From contig NZ_CP128360.1 in NCBI RefSeq assembly GCF_030345095.1, positions 2,852,001-2,916,000 of the forward strand: 64,000 nucleotides of DNA, given 5' to 3'. Made by a program: the position numbers and the translations under genes. This document shows positions 4,927-36,574 of this stretch, in pieces (position 1 is the first letter of the stretch; each line of letters begins with the position of its first letter). Under the pieces are notes generated by a model. It worked only from the letters and a program-made list of their open reading frames with translations, was not told the origin of the DNA and did no database searches. Origin of the DNA: Solwaraspora sp. WMMA2056 (GTDB taxonomy: Bacteria > Actinomycetota > Actinomycetes > Mycobacteriales > Micromonosporaceae).

Positions 4927-5373
4927 TCAGGCACGCGCCAGCGCGGAGTACGGCGCCAACGCCCGTACCAGCGCCTCGGGGACCCGGGTCGGAACGGTCC
5001 TGGTGTTCGGCCCGCGCATGCAGGCCACCCGTTGCCGGCCCCGGGCCACCGGCAACTCGCCGTCGGCACCCAGCCGGATGTAGTCGAAACTGAACTCCAA
5101 CTGGGTCTGCGCCAGATCCACCAGCCGCATCCGGATGGCGAGGTCGTCGAAGGCGGTGATCTCGGCGAAGAACTCGCAGTCCACCCGGAGGGTGAACAAC
5201 TTGAGGTCGGCCTGCACCTCGGCGAGCACACTCGGCGCCCGTTCCTTGAGGAACATCTCCCGGCACCGCCCCTGCCAGCGCAGGTAGTTGACGTAGTAGA
5301 CGTTGCCCACCACGTTGGTCTCCTCGAAGCCCACCGTGTGGCGGTACTCGTAGTAGTCCGACATCCGGCTCAC
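4927..5373 (-). CDS. Enediyne polyene-releasing hotdog thioesterase (E10/CalE7 type)
   Basis: A 148-residue single-domain hotdog thioesterase with the enediyne-specific core VGFEETNVVGNVYYVNYLRW and GRCREMFL. In studied clusters this enzyme releases the conjugated polyene from the iterative PKS; its pairing with the PKS is a diagnostic part of the minimal enediyne cassette. The start is set at GTG 5373, overlapping the PKS stop as GTGA; an internal ATG at 5364 is an alternative only nine bases later. Translational coupling fits a fixed ratio of thioesterase to PKS. Length is normal for the family. Confidence 0.93.
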   Translation of the reverse strand: MSRMSDYYEYRHTVGFEETNVVGNVYYVNYLRWQGRCREMFLKERAPSVLAEVQADLKLFTLRVDCEFFAEITAFDDLAIRMRLVDLAQTQLEFSFDYIRLGADGELPVARGRQRVACMRGPNTRTVPTRVPEALVRALAPYSALARA

Positions 5374-12148: not shown

Positions 12149-12152
12149 CGGT

Positions 12153-14099: not shown

Positions 14100-14102
14100 G
14101 GA

Positions 14103-15077: not shown

Positions 15078-15111
15078 CTCTCTCCCTCACTTGTCCTCGA
15101 TGAATGGCAGT

Positions 15112-15143
15112 CGTCGCCCCGCATCATGGCCAGCGGGGCGACG
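15112..15143. terminator. Intercistronic hairpin between the two DUF1702 genes
   Basis: An 11-bp perfect stem (15112-15122 with 15133-15143) closes a ten-base loop, in the 195-base gap between the two paralogous genes on the minus strand. It could terminate or attenuate the upstream transcript, or protect a processed end. The gap is less GC-rich than its surroundings and could also hold a promoter for the downstream cassette. Confidence 0.5.
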
Positions 15144-15271
15144 GAATTCCTTCTTTGGAAATGCCACGTTGGGGAATTTCTCCGAAATTGCTCGATGATG
15201 CGGAACGGGCATGCGTCAACCGGCCGTCTACGGTGACAGCCGTTCCTTCGCGTTGCTCTGATTTCTGTTGT

Positions 15272-16294: not shown

Positions 16295-16372
16295 GCGTTT
16301 CTCCATTCCGGTACGGGTGCCGGCCGATGCCGGCACCGGCCGGCGCGGGCAGCCGGTACCCCTTTGGGTCGG

Positions 16373-17476
16373 TCATCCGGTCCGGGCGTGCCGGCCCGAC
16401 GACGGCGCCTCGGGCAGGCCCGGGTCGGTCGGGACGTGCCAGGCGCCGACCCGACGGGCCGCCGCGAAGCTGGCCCAGGCCGCAGCCTCGATCAGCGTCC
16501 GGTCGCGCGGGTGGTGCCGGCGGAACTCCGCGACCGTCTCGTTGTCCACCTGGTACGACGCCAGGGCGGTGAGCAGTGCCAACCGTGCGGCAGCCTGATC
16601 GGGTGGGGAGAGCGGGGCGACGAGGTCCTCACACCACTGCCGGGCCAGCCCCGTCTCCTCGCCGCGCCAGCTCGCCAGCCGCTCCTCGACCAGCTGCCGG
16701 ACCGGTGCGGGCAGGCAGCGTTCGCCGGCGGCGGCCAGTGCCGCGTACGACCGGGCCGTCGCCTGGGCGACCGTCGGGTCACCGGCCGCCCAGCCGGCGT
16801 CGGCAGGCAGCGTCGCCGCCGGCAGTAGCGGCAGCGACCGCCCCGGTACGGGTGCTGCCCGCAGCGTCGGGTCGAGTTGCCGGCCGACGACGTGCTTGAA
16901 CCGTCGCCGTGCCGCCGGGGTGAGTCCGGGTGGTAGCAGGAAGCTGGTGAGGAAGACGTTGACCATCCGGGTCAGGTAGTGGAAGGCGACGACGACGCCG
17001 ACCAGCTCCGGCCGTTGCGCTTCGGTGAACGGCACCGGTGTCGGGGCGTCCGGCAGATGGGCGCTGCGGGCCCATTCGACCAGCGCCCGCAGCCGCGGGT
17101 CCGTCATCGTCTGTGGCCGGTCGGCGACGACCGCCTCGGCGTCGTGCTCGCCGGCCTGCGGGTACAGCCCGGTGCTGTGCATGTCCACGCAGTACGGGCA
17201 GATGTTGGCGACCGACACTCCGGCGGCGACCGCCTCCTTGGCGACGCGGTCCACCGCGCCCACCACCAGCAGCGGTTCGCGCATCAGCATCCAGAAGGCG
17301 CTGAGTGTCTCCGGTGCCGGCGAGTGGAGCAGGACCGGTGGGATGACCAGCCGCATCTCCTCGGCGCACTGGGCGTACACGGTCGCGACCGTGCCGAGCG
17401 CCGACTGCTCGGACACCGGACGGACGTGTCGCACCTGGCGTTGGGCGACCGACGCGACGACCCGTCGGATGACCAT
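16373..17476 (-). CDS. Carboxymuconolactone-decarboxylase/AhpD-like protein
   Basis: 367 residues. The segment ANICPYCVDMHSTGL holds the CxxC and nearby His of the AhpD/CMD fold, in which the Cys pair does redox or peroxidase chemistry. The protein is roughly twice the size of simple AhpD proteins, with a long C-terminal helical part (LASYQVDNETVAEFRRHHP) that may be a second, Cys-free CMD-like repeat. It is the first gene of the minus-strand enediyne run, so a role in the redox chemistry or handling of the reactive enediyne is plausible but unproven. ATG 17476 is the only well-placed start. Confidence 0.75.
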   Translation of the reverse strand: MVIRRVVASVAQRQVRHVRPVSEQSALGTVATVYAQCAEEMRLVIPPVLLHSPAPETLSAFWMLMREPLLVVGAVDRVAKEAVAAGVSVANICPYCVDMHSTGLYPQAGEHDAEAVVADRPQTMTDPRLRALVEWARSAHLPDAPTPVPFTEAQRPELVGVVVAFHYLTRMVNVFLTSFLLPPGLTPAARRRFKHVVGRQLDPTLRAAPVPGRSLPLLPAATLPADAGWAAGDPTVAQATARSYAALAAAGERCLPAPVRQLVEERLASWRGEETGLARQWCEDLVAPLSPPDQAAARLALLTALASYQVDNETVAEFRRHHPRDRTLIEAAAWASFAAARRVGAWHVPTDPGLPEAPSSGRHARTG

Positions 17477-17699: not shown

Positions 17700-17726
17700 T
17701 TGTCACAACGTCACATACGGTGACAA
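17700..17726. promoter_or_regulatory. Inverted repeat upstream of egtA, possible operator
   Basis: ttgtcac (17700-17706) and gtgacaa (17720-17726) are perfect inverted copies 13 bases apart; an extra gtcac lies inside at 17710-17714. They sit in the intergenic space between the divergent enediyne operon and egtA, directly ahead of the egtA ribosome site. A regulator bound here could sense oxidative or thiol state; the regulator is unknown. Confidence 0.4.
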
Positions 17727-17740
17727 TTGGAGGGGTGGGA

Positions 17741-19015
17741 GTGCAGCACCTGCACCTGTCCGACGCCGTGCGCCCGGCCGACGGTGACGAGGTCATCGCC
17801 GACGTCGCCGCCGCCGTCGGCCACATCGGTCGGATCTGCTTCAAGACCGGACCGCCCCGGCGGGTCGGTGTCGAACTCGAATGGACCGTGCACCACGTGG
17901 ACGACCCCGCCCGTCCACTCGACCCGGAGATCCTCGGCCGGGCGCTCGGCGACCACGCCCCACCCACCCTGCGCCGCGACAGCCCACACCGGCCCCTGCC
18001 GCACGGCGGGCAGGTCACCGTCGAGCCCGGCGGCCAGGTGGAGATCTCCAGCCTGCCGGTCGACTCCGTCGCCGACCTGCACCTGCGCACCGTCGCCGAC
18101 ACCGCCGCCCTCGACGCCCGGCTCGCCCGGGCCGGCCTGCGGCTCGGCTCCCACGGCTGCGACCCGCACCGGCCGCCCCGGCGCATCCTGCACAACCGCC
18201 GGTACACCGCGATGGCCGACGCCTTCGGCCGGTACGGCGCAGCCGGAGCGACCATGATGTGCGCCACGGCCGGCCTGCAGGTGTGCCTCGACGCCGGGAC
18301 CCCCGCCCAACTGCCGCTGCGCTGGGCGGCCGCGAACGCACTCGGGCCGGTGCTGCTGGCGACCTTCGCCAACTCGGCACGGTACGCCGACCGGGACACC
18401 GGCTGGGTGTCGCACCGGATGCGGACCTGGCTCACCCTCGACCCTGCCCGCACCGCCCCGCCGACCGCCGTCGCACCGGGGCAACTGCGGGGAGAGCCGG
18501 CGGGACAACCGCCGACGGACCCGGTGGCGGCCTGGACCCGCCGCGTCCTGGACACCCCGCCGCTGTTCATCGCCGACGGGCGGCACGGCTGGACCCGGTC
18601 CGGCGCCGTCGGGTTCGGCGACTGGATCCGCAGCGGCCTGCCCCGCCCACCCACCTACGCCGACCTGTCGCTGCACCTGAGCACGCTCTTCCCCCCGGTA
18701 CGCCCGCAGGGCCACCTGGAGATCCGCTACCTCGACGCCCAACCGGCCGACGACTGGCTGGCGCCGGTCGCCGTACTGGCCAGCCTGTTCGCCCGCGACG
18801 AGACGCTGCGTACCGCGTGGCGCCACGCCGCCCCGGTCGCCGACCGGTGGGCCGACGCCGCCCGCGTCGGCCTGGCCGACCCGGCGTTGGCCGCCGCCGC
18901 ACGGGCCGTCGTCGGCCTCGCCTGCGACCACCTCGCCGACACCGGCCTGCCGGCGACGACCGCCACCACGATCCGGCACTCGCTGCGTCGCCGGCTGCCG
19001 AAGGAGGACCTGTGA
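17741..19015 (+). CDS. egtA: Glutamate-cysteine ligase EgtA (ergothioneine pathway)
   Basis: 424 residues of the GCS2-type ligase family that makes gamma-glutamylcysteine. Seen motifs: RRVGVELEWTVHHVD near the N-terminus, QVTVEPGGQVEISSLPVDSV (glutamate/ATP site), RYTAMADAFGRYG, MMCATAGLQVCLDAG and QGHLEIRYLDAQP. GTG 17741 is chosen because ggagg lies seven bases upstream; an earlier GTG at 17720 falls within the inverted repeat. First gene of an egtABCD operon with overlapping junctions. Its product feeds EgtB as the sulfur donor of the bacterial gamma-Glu-Cys route. Confidence 0.93.
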   Translation: MQHLHLSDAVRPADGDEVIADVAAAVGHIGRICFKTGPPRRVGVELEWTVHHVDDPARPLDPEILGRALGDHAPPTLRRDSPHRPLPHGGQVTVEPGGQVEISSLPVDSVADLHLRTVADTAALDARLARAGLRLGSHGCDPHRPPRRILHNRRYTAMADAFGRYGAAGATMMCATAGLQVCLDAGTPAQLPLRWAAANALGPVLLATFANSARYADRDTGWVSHRMRTWLTLDPARTAPPTAVAPGQLRGEPAGQPPTDPVAAWTRRVLDTPPLFIADGRHGWTRSGAVGFGDWIRSGLPRPPTYADLSLHLSTLFPPVRPQGHLEIRYLDAQPADDWLAPVAVLASLFARDETLRTAWRHAAPVADRWADAARVGLADPALAAAARAVVGLACDHLADTGLPATTATTIRHSLRRRLPKEDL

Positions 19016-20316
19016 CCGGACCGACCGACCTACGCGCCGTACTCGCCGACGACCTCGACCGCGCCCGACGACGCAGCAGCGCCCTCACCGACGCCGTCGA
19101 CGACGCCGACCTGGTCCGCCAGCATTCGCGGCTGATGTCGCCGCTGGTCTGGGACCTGGCCCACATCGGCAACCAGGAGGAACTCTGGCTGGTCCGCGAC
19201 GTCGGCGGCCGGGATCCGGTCCGCGCCGACATCGACCACCTGTACGACGCGTTCAAGCACGCCCGCGCCGACCGCCCCGCGCTGCCGCTGCTGGACCCGA
19301 CCGAGGCGCGCGCCTACACCCGTACCGTCCGGGACAAGGTCCTCGACCTGCTCGACACGGTGGCGTTCGACGGCCGACCACTGGTCGAGCAGGGCTTCGC
19401 CTTCGGGATGATCGTCCAGCACGAGCAGCAGCACGACGAGACGATGCTCGCCACCCACCAGTTGCGGACCGGGCCGCCGGTGCTCACCGCCGCGCCCACC
19501 CCGCCGTCGGCCGGGCCGGTCGACGGCGAGGTGCTCATCCCCGCCGGGCCGTTCACCATGGGCACCTCCACCGAGCCGTGGGCGCTGGACAACGAACGCC
19601 CCGCGCACCCGGTCGACGTGCCGGCGTTCCTCATCGACCGCGCGCCGGTGACCAACGCCCGCTACCAGCGTTTCATCGACGACGGCGGCTACCACGACGA
19701 GCGATGGTGGAGCCCGCAGGGCTGGGCCCACCGGCTGCGGGCCGCGCTCGCCGGGCCGGCCCACTGGCACGGCGACGGCAGCGCCACCCGGTTCGGCCGA
19801 CGGTCGGCGATCGTGCCCGACGAGCCGGTGGTGCACGTCGGCTGGTACGAGGCGCAGGCGTACGCGAACTGGGCCGGCCGTCGGCTGCCCACCGAGGCCG
19901 AATGGGAGAAGGCCGCCCGGTACGACCCGTCGACCGGCCGGTCCCGCCGCTACCCGTGGGGCGACGACGATCCGCGACCCGAGCACGCCAACCTGGGCCA
20001 GCGGCACCTGTCCCCGGCCCCGGTGGGCGCCTACCCGGCCGGTGCCTCACCGGCCGGGGTGCACCAGCTGATCGGCGACGTGTGGGAGTGGACCGACACC
20101 TGGTTCGACGGCTACCCCGGCTTCACCGCCTTCCCGTACCGGGAGTATTCGCAGGTCTTCTTCGGCCGCGACCACCGGGTGCTGCGCGGCGGCTCGTTCG
20201 GCACCGACCGGTCCGCCTGCCGGGGCACCTTCCGCAACTGGGACTATCCGATCCGGCGGCAGATCTTCAGCGGCTTCCGGACCGCCCGCGACCCGCTGCC
20301 CGGCGAGGTCGCCTAG
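19012..20316 (+). CDS. egtB: Iron-dependent sulfoxide synthase EgtB
   Basis: 434 residues: an N-terminal DinB-like domain with the iron-ligand motif [14 protein letters not shown] and [11 protein letters not shown], then a C-terminal formylglycine-generating-enzyme-like domain ([55 protein letters not shown]). It joins gamma-Glu-Cys to hercynine with oxygen, forming the C-S bond and a sulfoxide. The C-terminal [13 protein letters not shown] segment agrees with the mycobacterial type that uses gamma-Glu-Cys. GTG 19012 overlaps the egtA stop by four bases and is preceded by aaggagga. Confidence 0.95.
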
Positions 20317-21092
20317 TGTGCCGCCACCAGCTGTACCTGGGCCCACCCACGAGCCTGGCGACGCTGCTGATCGATCCGGCGCACAGCCTGTACCGCCAGT
20401 CCTGGGCACCCCGGCAGATGCGGGGCGGCGGCACGGTCAACGCCGACGGGTTCGGCATCGGCTGGTACACCGGCACCGGCACCGGGTCCGCAACCGGCGC
20501 AGGTCCGGTCCGGTACCGCCGGGCCGTACCGATCTGGGCCGACCAGAGCCTGCCCGAACTGGCCCGGGCCACCGTCACCGGCGCGCTGCTCGCCGCCGTC
20601 CGCTCGGCCACCCCCGGGATGCCGGTGGTCGAGACGGCCTGCGCCCCGCACGCCGAGGGCCGCTGGTTGTTCAGCCACAACGGGGTGGTGGCCGGCTGGC
20701 CGGGCAGCGTCGCCGACCTCGCCGCCACCCTGCCGGTGACCGACCTGCTCACCCTCGACGCGCCCACCGACGCCGCGCTGCTGTGGGCGCTGGTGCGCCA
20801 CCGGCTGCGGGCCGGCGTCCCGCCCGCCACCGCGATCGCCGACACCGTCACCAGCGTGCTCGCGGTGGCCCCGGCGTCCCGGCTCAACCTGCTGCTCACC
20901 GACGGCGAACAGGGCTGGGCCAGCACCGTCGGCCACAGCCTGGCCGTCCGGGCCGCCCCGGACCGGATCGTCGTCGCCTCCGAACCCACCGACGACGATC
21001 CGGGGTGGACCGCCGTACCGGACCACCGACTCGTCGTCGCGACCCCGACCGCCTACACCATGGAGGAACTGTGCGGATCGACATCGCACTGA
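20316..21092 (+). CDS. egtC: Class II glutamine amidotransferase EgtC
   Basis: 258 residues. The predicted start is GTG followed by Cys (V-C-R-H-Q-L-Y-L), which puts a nucleophile Cys at the N-terminus after Met removal, as required for class II amidotransferase-type hydrolases. [16 protein letters not shown] and [12 protein letters not shown] are the expected active-site segments. EgtC removes glutamate from the sulfoxide intermediate. The start G is shared with the TAG stop of egtB (TAGTG), and the end overlaps egtD by 22 bases, so the operon is tightly coupled. Confidence 0.94.
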
Positions 21093-22033
21093 CCGAGGCC
21101 GACCAGCTGCAGGCGTTGCGCGCCGACGTCCGGCTGGGGCTGACCGCCGAGGCGAAGTGGCTGCCGCCGAAGTGGTTCTACGACAAGTACGGCAGCGAAC
21201 TGTTCGACCGCATCACCACCCTGGCCGAGTACTACCCGACCCGGGCCGAACGCGCCGCGCTGACCGCGCACGCCGCCGACATCGCCGCCGCCACCCGGGC
21301 GGTCACCCTGGTGGAGCTGGGCAGCGGATCGTCGGAGAAGACCCGGCTGCTGCTCGACGCGCTGGGCCGGGCCGGCAGTCTGGACCGGTTCGTGGCACTG
21401 GACGTCTCCGAATCAGCGCTGCGCGACGCCGCCACCGCGCTGCACCACGACTACCCGCAGCTGACGGTCCACGCGATCGTCGGTGACTTCACCCGGCACC
21501 TGGACCGGATTCCGGCCGGTGACCACCGGCTGGTCGCCTTCCTCGGCGGCACCATCGGCAACCTGGTGCCGGCCGAACGGGCCGAGTTCCTGGCGGCGGT
21601 GCGCGCGGTGCTGCGGCCCGGTGAATGGCTGCTGCTCGGCACCGACCTGGTCAAGGCGGAGTCGACCCTGGTCGCCGCCTACGACGACGCCCAGGGGGTG
21701 ACCGCCGAGTTCAACCGCAACGTGCTGCACGTGGTCAACCGCCAGCTCGGCGCCGACTTCGACCCGACGGCGTTCCGGCACGTTGCCCGTTGGGACGCCG
21801 GGCACGAATGGATCGAGATGCGGTTGCGGGCCGAGCGGGCCATGACGGTCGAGGTCGCCGACCTGGAGCTGACGGTGCCGTTCGCCGCCGGGGAGGAGCT
21901 GCGGACCGAGGTGTCGGCGAAGTTCCGCCGGGCCGGCGTGACCGCCGAGCTGGCCGCTGCCGGGTTCGAGCTGACCCACTGGTGGACCGACCCGGCCGGC
22001 CGGTTCGCAATCAGCCTGTCCCAGTGCCGGTGA
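21071..22033 (+). CDS. egtD: Histidine N-alpha-methyltransferase EgtD
   Basis: 320 residues of the EgtD SAM-dependent methyltransferase family, which trimethylates histidine to hercynine. Motifs: [20 protein letters not shown] and [12 protein letters not shown], the SAM site [45 protein letters not shown] and [16 protein letters not shown] 21071 is preceded by ggagga at 21062-21067. It ends the operon: no egtE-like C-S lyase follows. It converges on the ABC ATPase gene only three bases away, with no visible hairpin between. Confidence 0.95.
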
Positions 22034-24648: not shown

Positions 24649-25110
24649 TCAACGGGCGTCGCCCCGCTCCGGATGATCGCCGTCATCGACAGCCGTGCCG
24701 GGTGGCTCGATCACCGGCAGCCCGGCGGCCCGCCAGGCCGCGAAGCCGCCGTCGAGGTCGGTGGCCAGCGGCAGACCGGTGTCCTGAAGCGACGCGGCGG
24801 CCAGCGACGACGCGTATCCCTCCTGGCAGACGACGATCGGCCACAGCCGAGGGCTGTCGGCGACGTCGAGCCGCGCCGCGCTGTGCGGGTCGAGCCGCCA
24901 CTCCAGCACGTTACGTTCGATCACGTACGCCCCGGGGATCTCGCCGTGCGCCGCGCGTTGAGCGGCCGGACGGATGTCGACCAGTACCGCTTCGCCGTCC
25001 TGCTGAGCCTGGTAGGCGGTCCGGGCGTCGACCCGGTCGAGGCGGCCGCGGACCTTGTCCAGCAGTCGGTCGATGCCGGGTTCCGGGGTGCCGGGTTCCG
25101 GGGTCACCAT
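24649..25110 (-). CDS. Rhodanese-domain protein coupled to the PKS-NRPS
   Basis: 153 residues, a single rhodanese domain: DGEAVLVDIRPAAQRAAHGE, IPGAYVIERNVLEWRLDP, the active-site loop VVCQEGYASSLAA with catalytic Cys, and DLDGGFAAWRAAGLPV. The C-x-x-G-x-x-S loop length fits sulfurtransferases, but some such proteins are only regulators. ATG 25110 has a superb ggaggaacc ribosome site and lies 13 bases after the PKS-NRPS stop, so the two are co-expressed. It may deliver sulfur to the peptide product or protect against the aldehyde or thiol chemistry; both are inference. Confidence 0.88.
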   Translation of the reverse strand: MVTPEPGTPEPGIDRLLDKVRGRLDRVDARTAYQAQQDGEAVLVDIRPAAQRAAHGEIPGAYVIERNVLEWRLDPHSAARLDVADSPRLWPIVVCQEGYASSLAAASLQDTGLPLATDLDGGFAAWRAAGLPVIEPPGTAVDDGDHPERGDAR

Positions 25111-25123
25111 GGTTCCTCCGTGA

Positions 25124-28100
25124 TCATGTCCGTCCTCCTTGCCCCAACGCCCGCCGACGCCCCAGTCGCCCGGCGACCAGGTCGGCGACCGCAGTGCCCG
25201 CCAGATGCAGCGGTGCCGCCGCGATGCCCGCCGCCCGCGCCGCGGACCAGTACGCCGCCGCCAGCTCCGTCTCCACCAGACCGTGCACCAGCGGCAGATC
25301 CGGCCGCGCCGCCTGCAACAACGACTCCACCTGGCAGGACGCCACCGCGTCCGGCGACGCGCCACGGGCGGCGTACCCGGCCACCGCGACCGGCGGTAGC
25401 CCGGCGGGCAGCAGCCGGCGCACCGTACCGCAGTCGAGCAGGCCACCACCGACCACCAGCACGTCGCCGTCGCGGCGCATCCGGTCCAGCGCCGCGCCCG
25501 GGTCGACACAGTACGGGAACGAGTCGTCGACCAGCACCGTACCCGGCCGCAGCCGGTCGACGTCGACGATCGCCGACGAGGCACTCACCGCCGCCACGAT
25601 CGTCGCCGCCGCGTACACCGCCGGCGCGACGGCCGGGGTCGAGTCGGCCCAGACCAGCTCGCCACGGAACCCCAGCCGGCGCAGCCGCTGCGGGTAGTCG
25701 ACCAGCCGCTGCCGGCTGCCCGGCAGGTCCGCCAGCACGATCCGGGGCGGGTGCGGCCCGCCGTGGCGCAGCAGCAACTCCACCGCCGACCGGCCGATCG
25801 ACCCCAGCCCGACGACGGCCAACGGGCCGGCGGTCAGGTCACGGCCGGCGGCCGCCAGCGCGGCGAGCGTGGTCAGCACCACCGAGGTGGCGGTGGCCGC
25901 GTGCCCGGTCGTCACCCGTACCGCCGGGTCGACCTGCCGGACCACGTCGAAGCCGTAGCCGGTGACCGACGGCAGCATGCCGGCCATCGACACGCAGCGG
26001 GCACCCGCCCGCGCGGCGAGCCGGACCGCGTCGGCGGTCACCGCCGCCAGACCGGGCCCGAGTTCGTCGGCGAACACCGGCAGGCAGACGAACCCGGACC
26101 GGCCGAACGGGGTGACCAGCTCCTCCAACAACCGGGGTGCCCCGGTCGGGAACAGCAGCTCCCGGATGTGCTCCCGGGGCAGCTCGACCGCTGACATCCC
26201 GGCCAGCGCCGCCAGCTGCGTCGGTGCCGGAAGGTAGCCGACGATCGCCGCGTCCAGCGCGGTGCCGACAGCGGCGCTGACCAGGTCGGTCCCGGCTGCG
26301 GCGGTGACCCGGTCGGTGTCCGTCGTCGCCGCACCGACCAGGTCGGCTTCGATCGCGGCGACGAAGCCGGCGAAGCGGTCGGCGTCCATCGCCGCAGCCG
26401 TGGCCCGTACGGCGACCCGCAGCCCGTCGCCGCCCGGTCGGACGGTCAGCAGGACGTCGGTGCCGACCGGCGGCGGCTCCAGCTCGCTGTCGGTGTCGTC
26501 CGACTCGACGGTCAACCCGGCACCGGCTGCCGGCCCGAGCCCGGTGAAGTCCAACGAGCTGAAAATGAACTGCGCCCCGAGCAGCACGGACGGGCCGCCG
26601 TCGATGCCGGCCCGCGCACTGTCGGGCCCGTGCCGGCGGCCGGCGGCGACCTCGGCGGCCACCCGCGCCAGATCGGCACCGAACCCGCCGTCACCCGACA
26701 GGGCAGTGTCGGTGAGCCGCAGTGGCAGCAGCACCGCGCACGGGCCGAACAGCCGGTGCAGGTCCGGCAGCGGATGGTCGCGGCCGGTCACGGTCAGCCC
26801 GACCACCAGGTCACCCTGGCCGGTCAGCCGGACCAACCCCCGGTGGTACGCGGTGAGCACCGGCGCGTACCCGGTGGTGCCCGCCGCTGCGGCCAGCCGG
26901 CGCAGCCCGGCGGTGACCGTACCGTCCAGGGTGAACCCGTCGGTGCGGGCCGGCGCCGCCCCATCGACGGTGTGCCCGCGCAACGTCGGCGGCCGGTACG
27001 GCGAGGCGAACCGTTCCCGCCACCAGCGCAGCGCCACCGGATCCGGCACCTGACGGTGCAGCCAGTCGACGTAGTCGCGGAACGTGGTCCGGGGCGGCGG
27101 TGCCGCCTCGCCGGTGGCCGGATCGTCGTACAGCGCCAGCAGTTCCTGACCGAGCAGCGCGGCGCTGTAGCCGTCGCCGATCAGATGATGGGCGTGCACC
27201 ACCAGGACATGCTCGTCCGGGGTGAGCGTCAGCACCAGCAGCCGCAGCAACGGCCAGGCCCACGGCTCCACCGGCCGCTGCCGTTCCCGGGCCACGATCT
27301 CTGTGACCTGAACGGCCGAGGCGACGCGCTCGAACCGCACCGGCAGGCGCAGCGTCGCCGGCAGCTCCTGCTGCACCGGCGGCCGTGCCTCGGCGGGAAA
27401 CACCGTCCGCAGCATCGGATGCCAGGCCACGACGGTGTCGACGGCCCGTTGGAACCGTCGCCGGTCCAGCCGACCGGCCAGCCGCAGCCGGGCCAGCCAG
27501 GTCGAACTGCTGCCCGGCGCGGCGGCCTCGGCGAGCAGGAACCCCCGCTGCGCCGGGGACAGCGGAAACGGCCGTGGGTCGTACGCGTCGACCACTGCCG
27601 GCACCGCCTCCGGTGCTGCCTCCGATCCCGGTGCCGTCGCCGCCTCGGATCCCGGTGCGGCGGTGTCGATCGCGGCGGCCAGTCCGGCCAGGGTCCGGTG
27701 GTCGTAGATGACGGCCGGGCCGGGCGCGGCCGGGAACCGCTCCCGGAGCCGGGCGAAGACCTCGATCGCCACGATCGAGTCACCGCCGAGGGCGAAGAAG
27801 TCGTCGTCGCGGTGCACGGCCGGCACCCCGAGCACCGCCTGCCACACCTGCGCCACCTGCCGTTCGGTGCCGGTACGCGCTCCGCCGTCAACTGGTGCCG
27901 GCTCGTCGTCGAGCAGCCCGGCCAGCAGCTGCCGGTCCACCTTTCCAGTGGCGGTCAGCGGCAGCGCCCGTACCGGTCGGATCCGGGCCGGCACCCACTG
28001 CGGCGGCAGCCGGTCCGCGAGATGCCGGCGCAGCGCGGCGGCCGTTTCCGCCTCGAACGCGGTCACGCTGTCGGCCAGCTCGACGAACGCGACCAGCCGG

Positions 28101-31100
28101 GGGTACGGCGTCGCCTGGTGCAGCACGGCCGCGCCGCTGACCGCCGGGTGCTCGCCCAGCGCCGCTTCGATCTCCGCCGGCTCGATCCGGTGGCCGTGCA
28201 GCTTCACCTGGTCGTCGAGCCGACCGAGGAACTCGAGGTCACCGGTGGGGCCGACGCGGACCCGGTCGCCGCTGCGGTACCAGCGTCGGCCGTCGCGGTG
28301 AGTGAACGCCGCCTGAGTCTGCTCCGGATCGTCCAGGTAGCCGCTGGTCAACCCGGGCCCGGAGATCTGCAGCTCGCCGGCTTCGCCCGGCGGGCAGGGT
28401 CGCCCGTCGGCGTCGACGACGGCGAGGGTCGCGCCGGCCGCCGGCCGGCCGATCGGCACCCGCCGCAGGCCGTCGGCGGGCCGCCGGTCGATCAGGAACC
28501 AGGCGGCGTTGATGGTCGCCTCGGTCGGCCCGTACAGGTTGGTGATCCGGTGCCCGGGGCCGAACAGGTCGAACCAGCCGCGTACCTGCCCGGGCGGCAG
28601 CGCCTCGCCGCCGACGTGGATCCAGCGCAGCGCCGACAGGTCCGGTCGCCCACCCGAGGCGGTACGCCGCCGGGCCGCCGCCAGCAGTTGGCTCCACAGG
28701 GTCGGCACCGAGCTCCAGACCGTGATCCGGTCGTGTTCGACCCGGCGCAGCACCTCGTCGGGGTCGCGCAGCAGCCGCTGATCCAGGACGACGACCGTCG
28801 CCCCGACCAGCAGCGGTGCCAGCAGTTGCCGGACCGAGGCGTCGAAGCACCACGACGACGTCTGCGCCAGCCGGTCGTCGCTGTGGTAGCCGAACGTGTC
28901 GACCGCCCACCGCAGGTAGTTCCCCATCGACCGGTGGCTGACCGGCACACCCTTGGGCCGGCCGGTCGACCCGGAGGTGAAGATGACGTACGCCGTACCG
29001 TCGGGGTCAGGGGCCACCGCCCCCCGCACCACCGTGTCCACAGAGGTCTCATCGGCGACGGCCGCGTCGACGTCGACCGTCACCAGCCCGGCCTGCGCAT
29101 CGGCCAGTGCGTCGACCAGCACGGTGGACGCCGCGTCGTGCAGCAGCACCCGAGCGCCGCTTCGCCGCAGCTGGTCACTGAGGCGGGCCGCCGGGTGGGC
29201 GACGTCCAGCGGCACCCAGCCGGCCCCGGCGCGCAGCACCCCGACGACGGCGGCGACGGCGGCCGGGCCGCGCGCGGTGAGCATCCCGACCAGGTCACCG
29301 GCGCGGACCCCGGTGCGGCGCAGCGCGGCAGCGACCCGGTCGGCGGCGGCGTCCAACTGCCGGTACGTCATCCGTACCGCGCCGTCGGCGACGGCGACCG
29401 CGTCGGCGTGCCGGCGGCACACCTGCCCGATCCGCTCCACCACCGAGGGTGCCGTGCCCTCAACGGACTCCGCAGACGTCGATTCAGCCAGCTTGGCCAG
29501 GTCAGCCAGTTCGGCCAGGTCAGCCAGTTCGGCCAGGAAATCGGCGGCCAGCCCGGCGACGGTCGACCGGTCCAGCAAGGCCGCCGGATGGTTCCAGGCG
29601 AACCGCAGCCGCTCACCGTCGGGCCAGCAGAGCAGGCCCAGCCGGGTGCCGGCCGACGCGGTGCCGGCGGCCACCGGCGACACCCGTACCGGGCAGTCCG
29701 CGTCGGGCGTGACCGGGAAACGGGCGAAGCTGAAACTGGCCGGGCTGGCGGTGACCGGCCCGCCGCCGCCAGTGGGGTAGTCGGGTCGCGGCGTCGCCCG
29801 CGCCAGGTCGACCGCGTCGACCGTGCCGTGCCGCTGCGCCACCAGCCAAGCGGCCAGGATCCGGTGCGCGAGGTCGGCCGCCGGCTCGGCCGGGTCGACG
29901 TCGACCGTCACCGGCAGGGTGTCGGCGAACGGCCCGACGACCCGGTCGACGCCGGGCAGCCGGGCGTCGCGGCCGGCCCGCGCCACCGACACGGTGACGA
30001 TGCGCTGCCCGCTGGCGCGGGCCAGGCACCGGGCGTACCCGGCGAGCAGCAGGTGGAACAGCGACACCTGCGCGGCGGCGGCCGCCCGGGTCAGCGCGGC
30101 CACCGTCGGCGGGTCCACACTGACCTGATGGGCCGCGTACGGCGGCGCGGGCGGTGCGGCCGGGTCACGCCACGGCAGCCGCAGCCCGGCCGGCCACGAC
30201 GCCAGGGTCTCCCGCCAGAAGGCCAGGTCCTCCTCGCGTGCCGGGGCGGCGGCGGCCAGCTGGTCGCGGAACGTCGTCGGCACCGCCGGCAACTGCGGTA
30301 CGCGGCCGGCGGCCAACGCGCCGTACACCTGCCACAGCTCCTCGCTGAGCACACTCAGGCTGGCGCCGTCGCCGGCGGCGTGGTGCAGCACCAGCAGCAG
30401 TTGGGCGTCGGTGGGACCGGTCCGGATCAGGTCGGCCCGCAGCGGCGGCCGGCAGGTCAGGTCGATCGGCTCGTTGCACAGCCGTTCGGTCAGCGCCTCG
30501 ACGTCACCGTCGCCGCCAGCTTGGCCGGCGTCGTGGACGGCGTACCAGTCGGTCAGCGGCGTCGGCGGGCCGATCAGCTGGCGGGGCGCCGCGTCGCCGT
30601 CGCCGTCGGTCCACCGCATCCGCAGCATCGGGTGCCGGCGCGTCAGCTGGTCGAGGGCCTGGCCGAGCAGGTCGGCGTCGAGCGGCCCGGTGACGGCGTG
30701 CCGGACGAAGCCGTACGCGGCCACCTGCGGGTAGAACCGGTGCAAGGTGTGGAACGCCCGCTGCACCCCGGACAACGCGAACGACTCCGCGTCACCGTCG
30801 GCAGACGGCGTAACCGCAGACGGCAGCGGTGCCGGATCCGCCAGCCGGTCGACGAGTGCGGCGATCGTGCCGTGCTCGAACAGCAGCATGGTCGGCAGCG
30901 GCCGGCCGAGCTCGCCTTCGAGGATCTTGACCAGGTCGATGGCGGTAAGCGAGTCCAGGCCGAGGGAGAGAAACGGCGTGTCGTCGTCTATCCGCGCCGG
31001 GTCGCAGTCCAGCGCGTCGGCGAGCAGCCGCCGCAGCAGGTCCCTGATCTCACCCGGACGGTGGACCTGCCGACCCGCGTCACCACTCGACACTGCCTGC

Positions 31101-34100
31101 GGCTGCGGCTGCGGCACGGCGTCAGCTGGAGGCACGTTCGCGTCGGTCAGCCGGGCGACGACCAGGTGGGCGGCGGGTCGGCGCAGCGCCGACCGCAGCG
31201 CCGGCAGGGCGTCGTCGAACGGCAACGGCGGCAGACCCCGGGCGGCCAGCCGCGCCGCGAGTGCCGGATGCGCGGCCATCCCCGCGTCGGCCAGGGCCGA
31301 GAACCCGACGGTACGCAGCGGCCGGCCGGCAGCCTGTTCGACAGCGGCGTACGTGTCCAGGAAGGCGTTGGCGGCGGCGTAGTCGCCGACTCCTCCGGCG
31401 AGTCCGGGCAGCAGCGCGCTGACCGAGGTGAACGCCACCACGGTCGCCGGGCGTCGACCGTACCGGCGCAGCGCCTGGACGAGCAGGTGGCCGCCGCGTA
31501 CCTTCGGCGCCAGCACGGCCTGCAGCTGCGCCACGGACCTCGACCGCAGCGGACCTGGCCGGACCACCCCGGCGGCGTGGAACACCCCGGCGAGGTCGGG
31601 CAGCCCGGCGATCAGCGTGTCGACGTCGGCGGCGTCGGTGATGTCGCACCGGCGGTAGTCGACCCGCGCGCCGAGGGTCCGCAGCCGGTCGACCAGCCCG
31701 TCCGGTGCGGCGGCGGCGCGACCGGCGAGCACGATCCGGCGGTGTCCGCGCGCGGCCAGGTCCGCGGCGAGCGCGGCGCCGACGCCACCGGTGCCGCCGA
31801 CAATCAGCTGTACGCCGTCGGCGTCGACAGATGGTGTCGGCTCCTCGCCACTCGGCTTGCCGGCGGCGGACTCGTCGGTGAGCGGCGCGGCGGGGACGAG
31901 TCGGGGGCCCAGCCGCTGCCCGGCCCGCCACACCACCAGACCGGACTCCGCGTGCGTGGTCGCCACCTCGGCGGCCAGCGCGTCCACCCGGGCCGGTACG
32001 TCGTCGGCCCGCGATAAGTCCACTGCGGACACAACGCTGTCGGGATGCTCGTCGGCGAGCGCCGCCGACAGCCCGGTGACCAGGCTCTGCACCGGGTCCG
32101 GCCGTTCCCCGGCCGCCCCGGTGCCGACCGCGTCGTGGGTGACCACCAGCAGCCGGAACCCGCGTTCGGGCAGCGTGGCGACCAGCCCGGTCACGCCGTG
32201 CAGCGTGGCGTCGACGGCCGCGTCCAGCCCGGCCACACCGCCGTCGACGTCGAACGGGTCGACGCTGGCCAGGTACACGACGAGCTCGGCGTCACCGGTC
32301 CCGGTGACAAGCTCGATGCCGTCGGCGGCCAGCCGGTCGCGCAGCCCGTCCGCCAGCGGGCCGCCGGCCACCGTGCCCGGCCCGGTCAGGTGCACCGAGG
32401 CGGGGGATAGCCCGGCCGGCACCGGCAGTGGCGACCAGCGCACCTGATGGACCAGATCGTCCTTCATGGTCGCCGGCAGCCAGTGCCGTCGCCGCTGGAA
32501 CGGGTACGTCGGCACGGCGACCCGCCGCCGACCGCCGGCCAATCGGACCCGGTCCACGGCGACCCCGCGCTGCCACAACGCCCCGACCAGCCGAACCAGC
32601 CCGGTCGGGCCGGTCGGGCCGTCGTCGTCGGTCGGCGGCACCGACAGCACCTCGACCCGGTCGGCCGACTCCGGTGACGCCTCGCGTACCGCCCGGGTCA
32701 GCTGGTGCGGGTCGACGCCGAGCAGCAGGTCGTATCCCTGGTCGAGCAGGCCCCGCAGCTGGTCGGCGTCGTCGCCGACGACGGCGTCGGGCACCACCCC
32801 CCAGTCGGCGAGCCGCCGGCAGACCGCCGCCGGCCCGGTCGCGTCGTCGGCCGTGCCGTCGAGCGCCACCACGGCGGTACGCGGCCGGCGTACCACCTCG
32901 GTGACCGGGCCGGACGCGGCGGCGGCCAGCGCGGCGGCCAGCCCGGCGGTGCTGTCGGCGACGACGGCGACCCGGTGCGCCCGGTCGTCGCGGGCGGTGT
33001 TCACAGTGGCGCAGACGTCGCCGGGATCCAGCTCCGGATGCGCCTCGAGGTGGGCGGCGAGGTCCCGCAGCGACTGCCGCAACGCGACCTCGGTCGCCGC
33101 CGAGCAGGTCAGCAGGTACGGCGGCCCGGCGCTGTTCGCCCCGGCCCGCTCAACTGCCGCCCCGGCAGCCTGCTGCGATGCCGATGCCGGTGCCGGTGCC
33201 GGATCGGCCTGCTGCAGGATCGCGTGCGCGTTGGTGCCGCCGAACCCGAACGCGTTCACCCCGGCGGTCAACGGACCGTCGCCGACCCAGTCCCGTGCGC
33301 CGGTCACCACCTCGAATCCGGCGCCGGCCAGGTCCAGCCGGGGCGACGGGGTGTCGACGTGCAGCGACGGAGGCAGTTGGCGGTGCCGCAGCGCCAGGAT
33401 CACCTTGACCAGAGCCGGCATCCCGGCGGCGTTGAGCAGGTGACCGAGGTTCGACTTGACCGAGCCGAGCAGCCGGGGCCGGCCGTCCGGGCGCGGCGGG
33501 AAGGCGTACGCCAACGACCGTACCTCGACCGGGTCGCCGAGCTCCGTACCCGTCCCGTGTGCCTCCACGTAGGACACAATGGTCGGGTCGACGCCGCTGT
33601 CCCGGTACGCCTGGGCGATCACTTCCCGTTGGCGCAACGGGTTCGGTGCCAGCAGACTCAGCGAGCGGCCGTCGTTGTTGACGGCGGTCCCGCGTACCAG
33701 GGCAAGCAGCTCGTCCCCGGCGGCGCGGGCGTCGTCGGCGCGGGCCAGGACCAGCGCGGCCCCGCCTTCACCAGGCACGAACCCGTCGGCGGCGGCGGCG
33801 AAGACCCGGCACCGGCCGGTGGCCGACAGCGCCCCGGCGGCATTCAGCAGCCGGTGCCCGGTCGGCGTCAGGTTCAGGTTGACCCCGCCGACCACCGCCA
33901 GGTCGCATTCGCGCTCGCGCAGGCTGCGGACCGCCAGGTGCAGCGCGACCAGCGCCGACGAGCAGGCGGTGTCGACCGCGAGTGCCGGCCCGGTCAGGTC
34001 GAGGGCCTGCGCGACGCGGGCCGGGATCAGGTTGCGTAGGTTGCCGGCCAGCGCGGCCGGGTGGGTGGCACCCTCCGGTTGGGTGCGCAGCAGTTCGGCG

Positions 34101-36574
34101 TAGCCGCTCTCGCCGACCGCCGCGAACACCCCGACCCGGCGGCCGTGCCGACGCGGCCCGGCGTAACCGGCGCGTTCCAACGCCTCGTGCGCCAGCTCCA
34201 AAAAGATCCGGGCGTGCGGGTCGGTAACGTCGGCGTCGGTGTCGGACATGCCGAAGAACTCGGCGTCGAAGCCGGCCGGGTCGTCCAAGAACGCCCCCCA
34301 GCGGGCAGTGCCGGTGTCGGTGTCGTGCTGCCAGCGCTGCGCCGGGATCTCGCTCACGCTGTCGTGCCCGTCGAGCAGTTGCCGCCAGAACTCGTCGGGG
34401 CTGTCCGCACCGGGGAACCGGCAGGCCAATCCGACGACCGCCACCTCATCTCCCGGCCGGGTAGGGACCTCGGCGGCTGCGCCGCTTACCACCCCCTCCG
34501 CTGCGCTGCCCGCCGGGCGCTCTGTCCTGCCGTTCGCACCCTTCACCGGGGTGAGCAGATGGTCGACCAGTGCCGCCACTGTCGCCCGTTCCCGCAGCTC
34601 GGCCGGGTCGAGTTCGCGGCCGAACGCGTCCTCCAGCCCAGCCAGCACCTCCATCGCCTGCAGCGACGAACCGCCCAGCGTGGTGAACCGGTCGTGCAAC
34701 CCGATCTCGTCGACGGGCCGGCGCAGCACCTTCGCCCACACCGCCAACACCACCTGCTCCACCTCGTCCCGCCTCCCACCCCTCTTCCCCGCCCCCCACC
34801 TCCCCGACGATCTTGCAGTTATCGCGAGCTTTTGTCCGGATTGTCCAACGATAAGTGCAAGATCGTCGGGATCTTGAGCGGGTGATGGTGGCAGCGGAGA
34901 AGGTGCCCAGCGCTGCTCGACCGCGGCGAAGTCACCGGCGGCGTACCGCTGGCGCAGCAGGGGACGGCGCAGCTTGCCGCTGGTGGTACGCGGGAACGCC
35001 CCGGGCGGCACCGGCAGCACCCGTACCTGGTCGTGCCCGGTCGCCGTCACGATCCGGGCCGCCACCTCAGCGAGCACCGCAGCGACGTCGCCTGAGGGCG
35101 CCATGGTGCCGGCCCACTGCACGAACACCACGATCCGCTCGGCACCACTGGCATGGTCGGTGCAGCCGATCACCGCGACCCGCCCTGATGGCAGCCCGGC
35201 CGTGCCGGCGACGACCTCCTCCAGGTCGGCGGCGTGGAAGGTACGGCCGTTGACGAACACCACGTCCTTGTTCCGGCCGGTCACGCAGAGCCGGCCGTCG
35301 CGTAGGAATCCCAGATCACCGGTACGCAGCCAACCGTCCACGAACACCTCGGCGGTGGCCGCCGGATCACCGTGGTAGCCGGCGGCCACGTTCGGGCCGC
35401 GTACCTCGATCCGGCCGACCTGACCGTCACCGGCGACGCAGCCGGCGTCGTCGACGATCCGTACCTCGCAGCCGGGCACCGGCAGCCCGACGTCCATGAA
35501 CTCCACTGCGCCCGGGTCACCCTCGCCGGCCGGCTGCACCGTGCCGACCGCGAGCGCCGCCCGGTCCACCCGCACCGGTACGGCGACCTCGCCCAGCGGC
35601 GGGACGGTGACGGCAAGGGTCGCCTCGGCCAACCCGTACACCGGTTGCAGTGCGGCCGGGTCGAGCCCGGCGGGCCGGGTCCGTTCGACGAACGCCCGCC
35701 ACACCACCGGCGAGATCGGCTCCGCGCCGACCATCATCAGCCGTACGGCGCTCAGGTCCAGCCCGGCCAGGGCCTCGGCCGGCACCCGCCGGACGGCCAG
35801 GGCGAGGGCGAAGTTGGCGGCCGACAGCAGCGTGGCGCGGTGCCGGTGCGCGACGCTGAACCACAGCAGCGGCCGTTTCGCGAACGTCAGCGGGCCGATC
35901 CGCACCTGCCGCAGCCCGGCGGCCAGGGGCGCCAGGTGGGTGCCGATCAACCCCATGTCGTGGAAGTACGGCATCCAGCTGACCGAGACGTCGTCGGCGG
36001 TCAGCGCGGCGGCCTGGCCGATCTGCCGCAGGTTGGCCAGCACGTTGCGGTGCCGCAGTTCGACGCCGCGTGGGGTGCCGGTGCTGCCGGAGGAGAACTG
36101 CAGGAAGGCGGGACTGTCGGGGTCGGGTGCCGGCAGCCGACGTGGCGTCCGCCCGTCGGCCCGCAGCGTGGCGAGGTGCAGCGCCGGTGCGTCGGCCGCT
36201 TGCGCGACCGGGGCGCAGGCATCGTCGACGATCACCGGTACGCCGCCGAGCAGGTCACGCACGCCGGCCACCCGGGTCGGTTCCGCCGGCAGCGGTACGG
36301 GCACCAGCCCGGCCGCCAGCGCGCCCCAGAACATCGGCTGGAAGTCGTCGCCGGCATCGGCCAGCAGGATCACCGGCGTGCCGGCCGCAATCCCGGCATC
36401 GTGCAGCCCACCGGCGACCTTCAGCGCCTCGTCGCGCAGCTGCCGGTGCGTGACGACGCGTTCGGTCCCGTCTCCGCGAACGTGCGTGACCGTCTGATCG
36501 GGGGCGGTGTCGGCGGCTGCGATCAGCACATCGAGCAGGTGTTTCTCGCCGTTGGGCCCGTCCGTGATCAGCAC
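25124..36574 (-). CDS. Hybrid PKS-NRPS, FAAL start and acyl-ACP-reductase-like release domain
   Basis: 3,816 residues. Approximate order: FAAL-type AMP ligase (1-560, FSSGSTGTPRGVEL, WMPYFHDMGLIG); ACP (GGSSLQAME near 636); KS (DTACSSAL Cys871, EAHGTGTELGD, GSVKSNLGHLLNAAG); vestigial AT (1150-1370, GVVPDAVVGDDADQ where GHS is expected, linker YPFQRRRHWLP); KR (VGGTGGVGAALA near 1595); ACP (GLDSLTAIDL, Ser1875); C (HHAAGDGAS near 2065); A (FTSGSTGRPKGV near 2535, tentative pocket D-A-R-S-I-V-L-I-N-K, no confident match); PCP (LGGDSIVAIE near 2932); second C (HHLIGDGYS near 3127); and a C-terminal domain from about 3440 resembling cyanobacterial AAR (TTGHAATA, VVGLGSIGRS, GGGLLDC, ASCQVESLL). 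Predicted product: an N-(beta-hydroxyacyl) amino-aldehyde. GTG 36574. Confidence 0.88.
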   Translation of the reverse strand: MLITDGPNGEKHLLDVLIAAADTAPDQTVTHVRGDGTERVVTHRQLRDEALKVAGGLHDAGIAAGTPVILLADAGDDFQPMFWGALAAGLVPVPLPAEPTRVAGVRDLLGGVPVIVDDACAPVAQAADAPALHLATLRADGRTPRRLPAPDPDSPAFLQFSSGSTGTPRGVELRHRNVLANLRQIGQAAALTADDVSVSWMPYFHDMGLIGTHLAPLAAGLRQVRIGPLTFAKRPLLWFSVAHRHRATLLSAANFALALAVRRVPAEALAGLDLSAVRLMMVGAEPISPVVWRAFVERTRPAGLDPAALQPVYGLAEATLAVTVPPLGEVAVPVRVDRAALAVGTVQPAGEGDPGAVEFMDVGLPVPGCEVRIVDDAGCVAGDGQVGRIEVRGPNVAAGYHGDPAATAEVFVDGWLRTGDLGFLRDGRLCVTGRNKDVVFVNGRTFHAADLEEVVAGTAGLPSGRVAVIGCTDHASGAERIVVFVQWAGTMAPSGDVAAVLAEVAARIVTATGHDQVRVLPVPPGAFPRTTSGKLRRPLLRQRYAAGDFAAVEQRWAPSPLPPSPAQDPDDLALIVGQSGQKLAITARSSGRWGAGKRGGRRDEVEQVVLAVWAKVLRRPVDEIGLHDRFTTLGGSSLQAMEVLAGLEDAFGRELDPAELRERATVAALVDHLLTPVKGANGRTERPAGSAAEGVVSGAAAEVPTRPGDEVAVVGLACRFPGADSPDEFWRQLLDGHDSVSEIPAQRWQHDTDTGTARWGAFLDDPAGFDAEFFGMSDTDADVTDPHARIFLELAHEALERAGYAGPRRHGRRVGVFAAVGESGYAELLRTQPEGATHPAALAGNLRNLIPARVAQALDLTGPALAVDTACSSALVALHLAVRSLRERECDLAVVGGVNLNLTPTGHRLLNAAGALSATGRCRVFAAAADGFVPGEGGAALVLARADDARAAGDELLALVRGTAVNNDGRSLSLLAPNPLRQREVIAQAYRDSGVDPTIVSYVEAHGTGTELGDPVEVRSLAYAFPPRPDGRPRLLGSVKSNLGHLLNAAGMPALVKVILALRHRQLPPSLHVDTPSPRLDLAGAGFEVVTGARDWVGDGPLTAGVNAFGFGGTNAHAILQQADPAPAPASASQQAAGAAVERAGANSAGPPYLLTCSAATEVALRQSLRDLAAHLEAHPELDPGDVCATVNTARDDRAHRVAVVADSTAGLAAALAAAASGPVTEVVRRPRTAVVALDGTADDATGPAAVCRRLADWGVVPDAVVGDDADQLRGLLDQGYDLLLGVDPHQLTRAVREASPESADRVEVLSVPPTDDDGPTGPTGLVRLVGALWQRGVAVDRVRLAGGRRRVAVPTYPFQRRRHWLPATMKDDLVHQVRWSPLPVPAGLSPASVHLTGPGTVAGGPLADGLRDRLAADGIELVTGTGDAELVVYLASVDPFDVDGGVAGLDAAVDATLHGVTGLVATLPERGFRLLVVTHDAVGTGAAGERPDPVQSLVTGLSAALADEHPDSVVSAVDLSRADDVPARVDALAAEVATTHAESGLVVWRAGQRLGPRLVPAAPLTDESAAGKPSGEEPTPSVDADGVQLIVGGTGGVGAALAADLAARGHRRIVLAGRAAAAPDGLVDRLRTLGARVDYRRCDITDAADVDTLIAGLPDLAGVFHAAGVVRPGPLRSRSVAQLQAVLAPKVRGGHLLVQALRRYGRRPATVVAFTSVSALLPGLAGGVGDYAAANAFLDTYAAVEQAAGRPLRTVGFSALADAGMAAHPALAARLAARGLPPLPFDDALPALRSALRRPAAHLVVARLTDANVPPADAVPQPQPQAVSSGDAGRQVHRPGEIRDLLRRLLADALDCDPARIDDDTPFLSLGLDSLTAIDLVKILEGELGRPLPTMLLFEHGTIAALVDRLADPAPLPSAVTPSADGDAESFALSGVQRAFHTLHRFYPQVAAYGFVRHAVTGPLDADLLGQALDQLTRRHPMLRMRWTDGDGDAAPRQLIGPPTPLTDWYAVHDAGQAGGDGDVEALTERLCNEPIDLTCRPPLRADLIRTGPTDAQLLLVLHHAAGDGASLSVLSEELWQVYGALAAGRVPQLPAVPTTFRDQLAAAAPAREEDLAFWRETLASWPAGLRLPWRDPAAPPAPPYAAHQVSVDPPTVAALTRAAAAAQVSLFHLLLAGYARCLARASGQRIVTVSVARAGRDARLPGVDRVVGPFADTLPVTVDVDPAEPAADLAHRILAAWLVAQRHGTVDAVDLARATPRPDYPTGGGGPVTASPASFSFARFPVTPDADCPVRVSPVAAGTASAGTRLGLLCWPDGERLRFAWNHPAALLDRSTVAGLAADFLAELADLAELADLAKLAESTSAESVEGTAPSVVERIGQVCRRHADAVAVADGAVRMTYRQLDAAADRVAAALRRTGVRAGDLVGMLTARGPAAVAAVVGVLRAGAGWVPLDVAHPAARLSDQLRRSGARVLLHDAASTVLVDALADAQAGLVTVDVDAAVADETSVDTVVRGAVAPDPDGTAYVIFTSGSTGRPKGVPVSHRSMGNYLRWAVDTFGYHSDDRLAQTSSWCFDASVRQLLAPLLVGATVVVLDQRLLRDPDEVLRRVEHDRITVWSSVPTLWSQLLAAARRRTASGGRPDLSALRWIHVGGEALPPGQVRGWFDLFGPGHRITNLYGPTEATINAAWFLIDRRPADGLRRVPIGRPAAGATLAVVDADGRPCPPGEAGELQISGPGLTSGYLDDPEQTQAAFTHRDGRRWYRSGDRVRVGPTGDLEFLGRLDDQVKLHGHRIEPAEIEAALGEHPAVSGAAVLHQATPYPRLVAFVELADSVTAFEAETAAALRRHLADRLPPQWVPARIRPVRALPLTATGKVDRQLLAGLLDDEPAPVDGGARTGTERQVAQVWQAVLGVPAVHRDDDFFALGGDSIVAIEVFARLRERFPAAPGPAVIYDHRTLAGLAAAIDTAAPGSEAATAPGSEAAPEAVPAVVDAYDPRPFPLSPAQRGFLLAEAAAPGSSSTWLARLRLAGRLDRRRFQRAVDTVVAWHPMLRTVFPAEARPPVQQELPATLRLPVRFERVASAVQVTEIVARERQRPVEPWAWPLLRLLVLTLTPDEHVLVVHAHHLIGDGYSAALLGQELLALYDDPATGEAAPPPRTTFRDYVDWLHRQVPDPVALRWWRERFASPYRPPTLRGHTVDGAAPARTDGFTLDGTVTAGLRRLAAAAGTTGYAPVLTAYHRGLVRLTGQGDLVVGLTVTGRDHPLPDLHRLFGPCAVLLPLRLTDTALSGDGGFGADLARVAAEVAAGRRHGPDSARAGIDGGPSVLLGAQFIFSSLDFTGLGPAAGAGLTVESDDTDSELEPPPVGTDVLLTVRPGGDGLRVAVRATAAAMDADRFAGFVAAIEADLVGAATTDTDRVTAAAGTDLVSAAVGTALDAAIVGYLPAPTQLAALAGMSAVELPREHIRELLFPTGAPRLLEELVTPFGRSGFVCLPVFADELGPGLAAVTADAVRLAARAGARCVSMAGMLPSVTGYGFDVVRQVDPAVRVTTGHAATATSVVLTTLAALAAAGRDLTAGPLAVVGLGSIGRSAVELLLRHGGPHPPRIVLADLPGSRQRLVDYPQRLRRLGFRGELVWADSTPAVAPAVYAAATIVAAVSASSAIVDVDRLRPGTVLVDDSFPYCVDPGAALDRMRRDGDVLVVGGGLLDCGTVRRLLPAGLPPVAVAGYAARGASPDAVASCQVESLLQAARPDLPLVHGLVETELAAAYWSAARAAGIAAAPLHLAGTAVADLVAGRLGRRRALGQGGRT
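29495..29530. repeat. 18-bp tandem duplication in the C-A linker
   Basis: Two identical copies of ggccaggtcagccagttc (29495-29512 and 29513-29530) plus a partial third. In the megasynthase frame they encode repeats of E-L-A-D-L-A between the first C domain and the A domain, giving a flexible or helical linker. Replication slippage is the likely origin. Confidence 0.85.
34803..34870. repeat. 68-bp dispersed-repeat-like palindrome inside the PKS-NRPS gene
   Basis: Two 22-base arms (34803-34824 and 34849-34870) are inverted copies with one mismatch, enclosing a 24-base loop. The arms begin cccgacgatcttgca. The element sits between the FAAL and the first ACP of the megasynthase and is translated (about residues 568-590, PDDLALIVGQSGQKLAITAR) without breaking the frame. 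It looks like an intragenic REP/MITE-like insertion rather than a structural feature of the protein. Confidence 0.8.

Follow-up and report, generated by a model that had tools for sequence, protein, structure and literature searches.

How does an assembly line release its chain when it ends in neither a thioesterase nor a conventional reductase domain? This question is raised by a PKS-NRPS gene at 25124-36574 on the minus strand of a 64,000-nucleotide stretch of Solwaraspora sp. WMMA2056 DNA, referred to here as the window. Where NRPS systems release their chains reductively, R domains of the SDR type are usually credited with the step. The original prediction instead took the C-terminal part of this protein to be related to cyanobacterial acyl-ACP reductase (AAR), and proposed that it reduces a peptidyl or beta-hydroxyacyl thioester to an aldehyde.

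The gene and its surroundings

The gene runs as a single open frame from a GTG start through 3816 codons, and its product has the layout FAAL-ACP-KS-(AT remnant)-KR-ACP-C-A-PCP-C-AAR. The N-terminal fatty acyl-AMP ligase (FAAL; 34925-36574, minus strand, as are all domains of the protein) was located by domain search. Pfam and alignment placed ACP1 (34535-34762), the KS (32900-34450), the KR (31085-31837), ACP2 (30830-31063), the condensation domain C1 (29525-30802; residues ~1925-2350), the adenylation domain (27905-29443) and the PCP (27650-27892; residues ~2895-2975). An AT remnant and linker without GHSxG occupy 32315-32899. A terminal condensation domain, C2 (26285-27622; residues ~2985-3430), carries the motif HHLIGDG and lies between the last PCP and the AAR-type reductase domain (25127-26257; residues 3440-3816), which was defined by profiles, PDB matches and alignment. 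On the 3816-aa protein Pfam reports two AMP-binding, one KS, one KR, three carrier and two condensation stretches. All three carrier stretches (ACP1, ACP2 and the PCP) are N-terminal of C2, with none after it, and the KS, KR, C and carrier motifs are intact. No Pfam family scores over cut-off in the last 377 residues, so library annotation misses the AAR domain.

The order FAAL-ACP-KS-KR-ACP-C-A-PCP-C-AAR is common to all eight relatives compared over the whole gene. For the alignment of long rows, 72 of 88 family frames (those above 3000 residues) were joined with the window protein to give 73 rows, with duplicate entries for at least two genes (L025/L100 and L029/L101). The adenylation domain has the ten-residue code DARSIVLINK, with positions by GrsA numbering, and the pattern DARS(V/I/A)(V/L)L(I/V)NK is found in 73/73 long rows, so all of these proteins probably activate one and the same substrate. 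As for the AT, 53 of these rows have its GHSxG and 20 lack it, including the window protein; GH[SG]xG at the AT position is found in none of the seven genus members.

The 3' end of the gene is abutted by a rhodanese-like gene (24649-25128, minus strand), which is kept in 5/7 genomes of the genus and whose link to the pathway is unproven; amino-acid ABC transporter genes lie further along. Downstream of the best 80 of 126 relatives, the most-shared gene group covers only 13/80 loci, suggesting that the PKS-NRPS gene is a one-gene assembly line. Seven loci outside the genus have no neighbor in common with the window at 1e-10, up to 6 kb on each side. Upstream flanks were compared for 14 loci.

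Other genes in the window include GCS2 and histidine-specific methyltransferase genes at 17720-22033 (plus strand), presumably for ergothioneine biosynthesis. The minus-strand genes at 3008-17476 encode a KS-AT-KR-DH synthase (5370-12011), a 4HBT thioesterase, an UnbV-type protein, two DUF1702 proteins, an AhpD-like protein, a flavin reductase and a P450, and they resemble an enediyne polyketide cassette. An ARAGORN call of a tRNA-Trp at 26444-26518 (plus strand), antisense inside the PKS-NRPS gene, has no counterpart at six same-genus loci, and is therefore taken as probably spurious.

Family membership of the C-terminal domain

The C-terminal ~377 residues are of Rossmann type and follow the condensation domain. 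The expectation that they are neither a thioesterase nor a usual R domain was borne out, in that neither was detected. The window protein has no thioesterase match in Pfam or NCBIfam, and the domain has no match to a thioester-reductase model of the SDR type (NCBIfam at E <= 10, Pfam at E <= 1); nor is the Pfam thioester-reductase family among the 21 families listed for 34 members of the domain family. In a control search of the strain's own genome, nothing scored over cut-off for thioester-reductase, no match was obtained for cyclodeaminase, and matches do exist for shikimate dehydrogenase.

Relationship to AAR is supported at the level of the superfamily. A phmmer search of the PDB with the domain finds 9e4x (1.6e-35), 9e4s (2e-35) and PigE (0.0018). 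Profile A1, built on eight rows that contain the window's domain twice, places cyanobacterial AAR (0.002) behind two dehydrogenases, malate oxidoreductase (1e-4) and erythronate-4-phosphate dehydrogenase (5.2e-4), and this ranking counts against an AAR assignment. The broader profile A3 (34 of the 37 rows of A2) reverses the order, with PigE (6.9e-15) and S. elongatus AAR (SeAAR; 6e-6) above erythronate-4-phosphate dehydrogenase (2.4e-4) and malic enzyme (4.8e-4). By hhalign, the match to SeAAR has a probability of 96.2% (E 2.2e-9, 182 columns, ending before the Cys), versus 0.1% for the genome's own glutamyl-tRNA reductase.

Searches with the 34 members give a similar picture. Among 25 listed of 47 NCBIfam families, PigE matches 34/34 members (best 6e-19), the AAR model AcACP_reductase 21/34 (best 2.3e-9), the cyclodeaminase-like SbnB 29/34 (best 2.3e-7) and a FolD model 13/34 (3.7e-7); SbnB thus matches more members than the AAR model, but with a weaker best E. 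The 21 Pfam families listed include THF_DHG_CYH_C (19/34). Ornithine cyclodeaminase and shikimate dehydrogenase, which had been named as families that might fit better, give weak matches only (OCD 1/34, Shikimate_DH 2/34). The equivalog model for cyanobacterial long-chain AAR, TIGR04058 (cut-off 449.7 bits), has no match to the window domain even at E <= 10, and a genome-wide search with it found nothing over cut-off.

The motifs named in the original prediction are all present, namely SMAG (3529-3532), TTGHAATA (3555-3562), GLGSIG (3589-3594), GGGLLDC and ASCQVESLL, and the Cys of the last is correctly numbered 3747. Two of them need to be read differently. SMAG was taken as the start of the domain, but similarity to AAR sets in some 85 residues before it, where VGYLP corresponds to FGLIGHL of AAR. 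In GGGLLDC, the Cys is not a general feature of the family, as relatives have GGGLLHVG or GGGLLDVG. Conservation was assessed in 90 rows, from 90 of 91 hits (L060 was too short); these include the window's own domain and a domain that is more distant (L011), and no fewer than three genes appear twice, being in two collections. His3558 (codon 25901-25903, minus strand; Asn in SeAAR), the three Gly of GxGSxG and the DDS of VDDS are invariant in the 90 rows, and VDDSFP is retained in 73/73 long rows.

Cys3747 (codon 25334-25336, minus strand) is kept in 89 of the 90 rows and falls on Cys294 of SeAAR in a 43-row alignment that includes intermediates, in agreement with its proposed role as the counterpart of the acyl-binding Cys. 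This match rests on the multiple alignment, because the hhalign and HMMER alignments to SeAAR both stop before the Cys. Three rows of the 43 are in the wrong frame, of which two are gapped and one has a chance Cys at this position; the NRPS domain L106 has a Ser there. Significant profile similarity over the Rossmann part and a Cys at the position of SeAAR Cys294 together support placing the domain in the AAR/PigE/TamH superfamily.

A tree of 39 proteins separates 18 TTGH-type rows from 21 others with branch support of 100/99. It was built from the same alignment, less L143, L144 and L147 (wrong reading frame) and L148 (unknown letters). The TTGH rows comprise 14 of the window domain's family, L106, 9e4x and free-standing proteins from Pantoea and Streptomyces; the others, mostly TTGN with some TTGS, are SeAAR, two aminotransferase fusions and 18 free-standing proteins. 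A long-branch warning (SeAAR, L098, L106, L107 and L108) makes the inner order of the tree unsure. The domain is best explained as a predicted thioester reductase of the AAR superfamily, in a subfamily apart from cyanobacterial AAR and from PigE/TamH.

The same division is seen at the end of beta-2, where an Asp (Asp3616; codon 25727-25729, minus strand) is found in 18/18 TTGH rows and 90/90 family rows. The position is Ala in SeAAR, Gly in L107, His in L108 and Gly in the 18 free-standing rows kept. In Rossmann folds, an Asp at the end of beta-2 usually points to NADH. By this rule the invariant Asp3616 suggests that the cofactor is more likely NADH than NADPH. The signature is not proof either way, given that the TamH reductase domain is itself called NADH-dependent in the abstract of PMC9594044.

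Distribution and selective constraint

The gene is present in 7/7 genomes of the genus. In the order, 15/397 genomes match at E <= 0.001, nine of them (the strain's own included) at 4.1e-89 or better, and in a sample of the phylum 26/396 genomes match the profile at 1e-10. Four of the 26 matches (again including the strain's own) lie in open frames of 3819-4410 codons. The other 22 (L133-L154), most of them in small genomes, are free-standing AAR-like proteins in frames of 359-458 codons. When species genomes were scanned with one pattern, 164 stretches and 126 relatives came out, and the best 80 of these relatives are, by record title, all from actinomycetes. Among plasmids, tblastn gave a single record, WP_121549379.1 from Streptomyces fungicidicus, which is 57% identical over 87% of the query and whose deposited product name does not mention a reductase.

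AAR-like domains also occur in other contexts. The gene for L106 (4213-10443 of its locus, minus strand) encodes a different NRPS, with a TubC docking domain followed by C-A-PCP-AAR and with Ser for the active-site Cys. On a Pantoea stewartii plasmid (L097:10429-27283), a free-standing TTGH-type protein has as neighbors two adenylation-domain proteins, a luciferase-like monooxygenase and a KS protein; on a Streptomyces plasmid (L098:14707-18911), another is near an ACP and a ketosynthase gene.

Nei-Gojobori dN/dS was calculated per domain for the window against six same-genus orthologues. Values are 0.23-0.29 for the AAR domain, 0.18-0.35 for FAAL, 0.22-0.38 for KR, 0.32-0.37 for KS, 0.34-0.46 for C1, 0.32-0.52 for A, 0.38-0.50 for C2 and 0.44-0.76 for the AT remnant. 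The AAR domain is under purifying selection, and the AT remnant is far less constrained. This constraint, like the homology, the conserved residues and the domain order, can be read directly from the aligned sequences.

Chain release and known systems

From these features we infer the catalytic steps, the cofactor, the product and the role of C2. The FAAL would load a fatty acid onto ACP1, and the KS and KR would lengthen this to a 3-hydroxyacyl chain; in this strain the malonyl unit would come from an AT acting in trans. C1 would couple this chain to the amino acid on the PCP. C2 may then condense the product once more, onto an amine acceptor that could be another aminoacyl-PCP, on a partner protomer. 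By analogy, the AAR domain would act on a carrier-bound chain; it would take the thioester onto Cys3747 and use NAD(P)H, of which NADH is the likelier form, to reduce the acyl-enzyme and release an N-acyl amino or dipeptide aldehyde.

We regard formation of a Cys-thioester and hydride-driven release of an aldehyde, probably after a second condensation, as the best explanation and as reasonably probable. The position of C2 between the last PCP and the AAR domain means that simple release would not be the whole story, and makes direct release from the PCP one possibility among several. C2 looks intact, retains HHxxxDG in 73/73 long rows and resembles many solved C domains, PvdL best. A second condensation before release is favored because the long rows conserve the active sites of both C2 and the AAR domain, although this does not settle the point.

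Direct release of an N-(3-hydroxyacyl)-aminoacyl aldehyde from the PCP, with C2 as a scaffold or in a minor role, is possible but rather unlikely. The C-A-PCP-AAR order of L106, with no C domain between, would fit such a route, as would the weaker constraint on C2 than on the AAR domain, but the L106 domain lacks the Cys, and HHxxxDG of C2 is retained in all 73 long rows. It is doubtful that C2 instead hands the chain over to an alcohol or amine in free form while the AAR domain has another substrate, such as aminoacyl-PCP, which it would convert to an amino aldehyde acceptor for C2. The lack of a carrier after C2 is consistent with this route; however, a terminal C domain can also use the carrier of a partner protomer.

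It is quite improbable that the AAR-like fold performs a dehydrogenase reaction on a non-thioester substrate, as do relatives of SbnB, cyclodeaminase or FolD. The breadth of the SbnB, FolD (models up to 13/34) and THF_DHG_CYH_C matches is in its favor, but the best matches are to PigE and AAR, and the AAR Cys is conserved. Decay of the assembly line in the genus, with nothing made, would account for the AT remnant, its high dN/dS and the missing GH[SG]xG, but is very hard to reconcile with an open frame of 3816 codons, intact KS, KR, C and carrier motifs, the constraint on the AAR domain and a gene in every genome of the genus.

Returning to aldehyde release through Cys3747, a more specific and tentative proposal is that the gene represents a conserved one-gene actinomycete lipopeptide-aldehyde line that ends in a C-AAR unit. 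In this unit C2 would either act iteratively to attach a second amino acid or take up an amine from solution, and the AAR domain, NADH-dependent and Cys-based, would free the chain by reduction. No paper on such release logic was found in the open-access literature exclusive of bioRxiv. If true, NRPS release would include a second, unrelated chemistry that is covalent (through Cys), in a widespread single-gene assembly line. Prediction of products from genomes would change, and a compact aldehyde-making domain would be on offer.

The original remark, that no well-described NRPS is known to have this release domain, holds in part. No description of an AAR-type domain in an NRPS was recognized in the same literature, which is weak evidence; one paper on an "AAR domain" appears to use the letters in another sense. 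The type is not unseen, however, as the nearest chains in the PDB bear a name of the NRPS type. The entries 9e4x, 9e50, 9e56, 9e4s and 9e4u, with chains of 399 and 425 residues, are each named "Amino acid adenylation domain protein". These nearest solved relatives are ~28-30% identical to the window domain and have in common with it TTGH, VDDS, the aligned Cys and the Asp that closes beta-2. Judging by their name, the domain may derive from an NRPS, and an NRPS-type relative seems to have been crystallized already; papers on 9e4x, 9e56, 9e4s and 9e4u were not found in open-access literature exclusive of bioRxiv. The superfamily (AAR, PigE and TamH) and this PDB relative are known already; the novelty lies in an assembly line that is conserved, in its terminal C-AAR order and in the NADH-type signature of the reductase.

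SDR-type R domains of NRPS are likewise C-terminal and likewise proposed to release chains reductively, but their Pfam and NCBIfam models do not match the window domain. In PigE (prodigiosin) and TamH (tambjamine) an AAR-type domain is fused to another enzyme, as it is here, but that enzyme is an aminotransferase, the domain is of the TTGN type (fusions L107 and L108) and the context is outside NRPS. Excerpts of PMC8341465 and PMC9594044 describe reduction of thioesters to aldehydes by PigE and TamH as Cys-based, and have the acyl group moved to the active-site Cys of PigE and AAR prior to reduction by NADPH. The PMC9594044 excerpts state that acyl-CoA yielded no product with the TamH domain, and they report a cascade coupled to the ACP-bearing TamA. 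S. elongatus AAR (PDB 6jzu, 6jzq and 6jzz) has the same whole-domain layout, with Cys294 corresponding to Cys3747, but is free-standing, of the TTGN type, and has Ala where the NRPS type has Asp.
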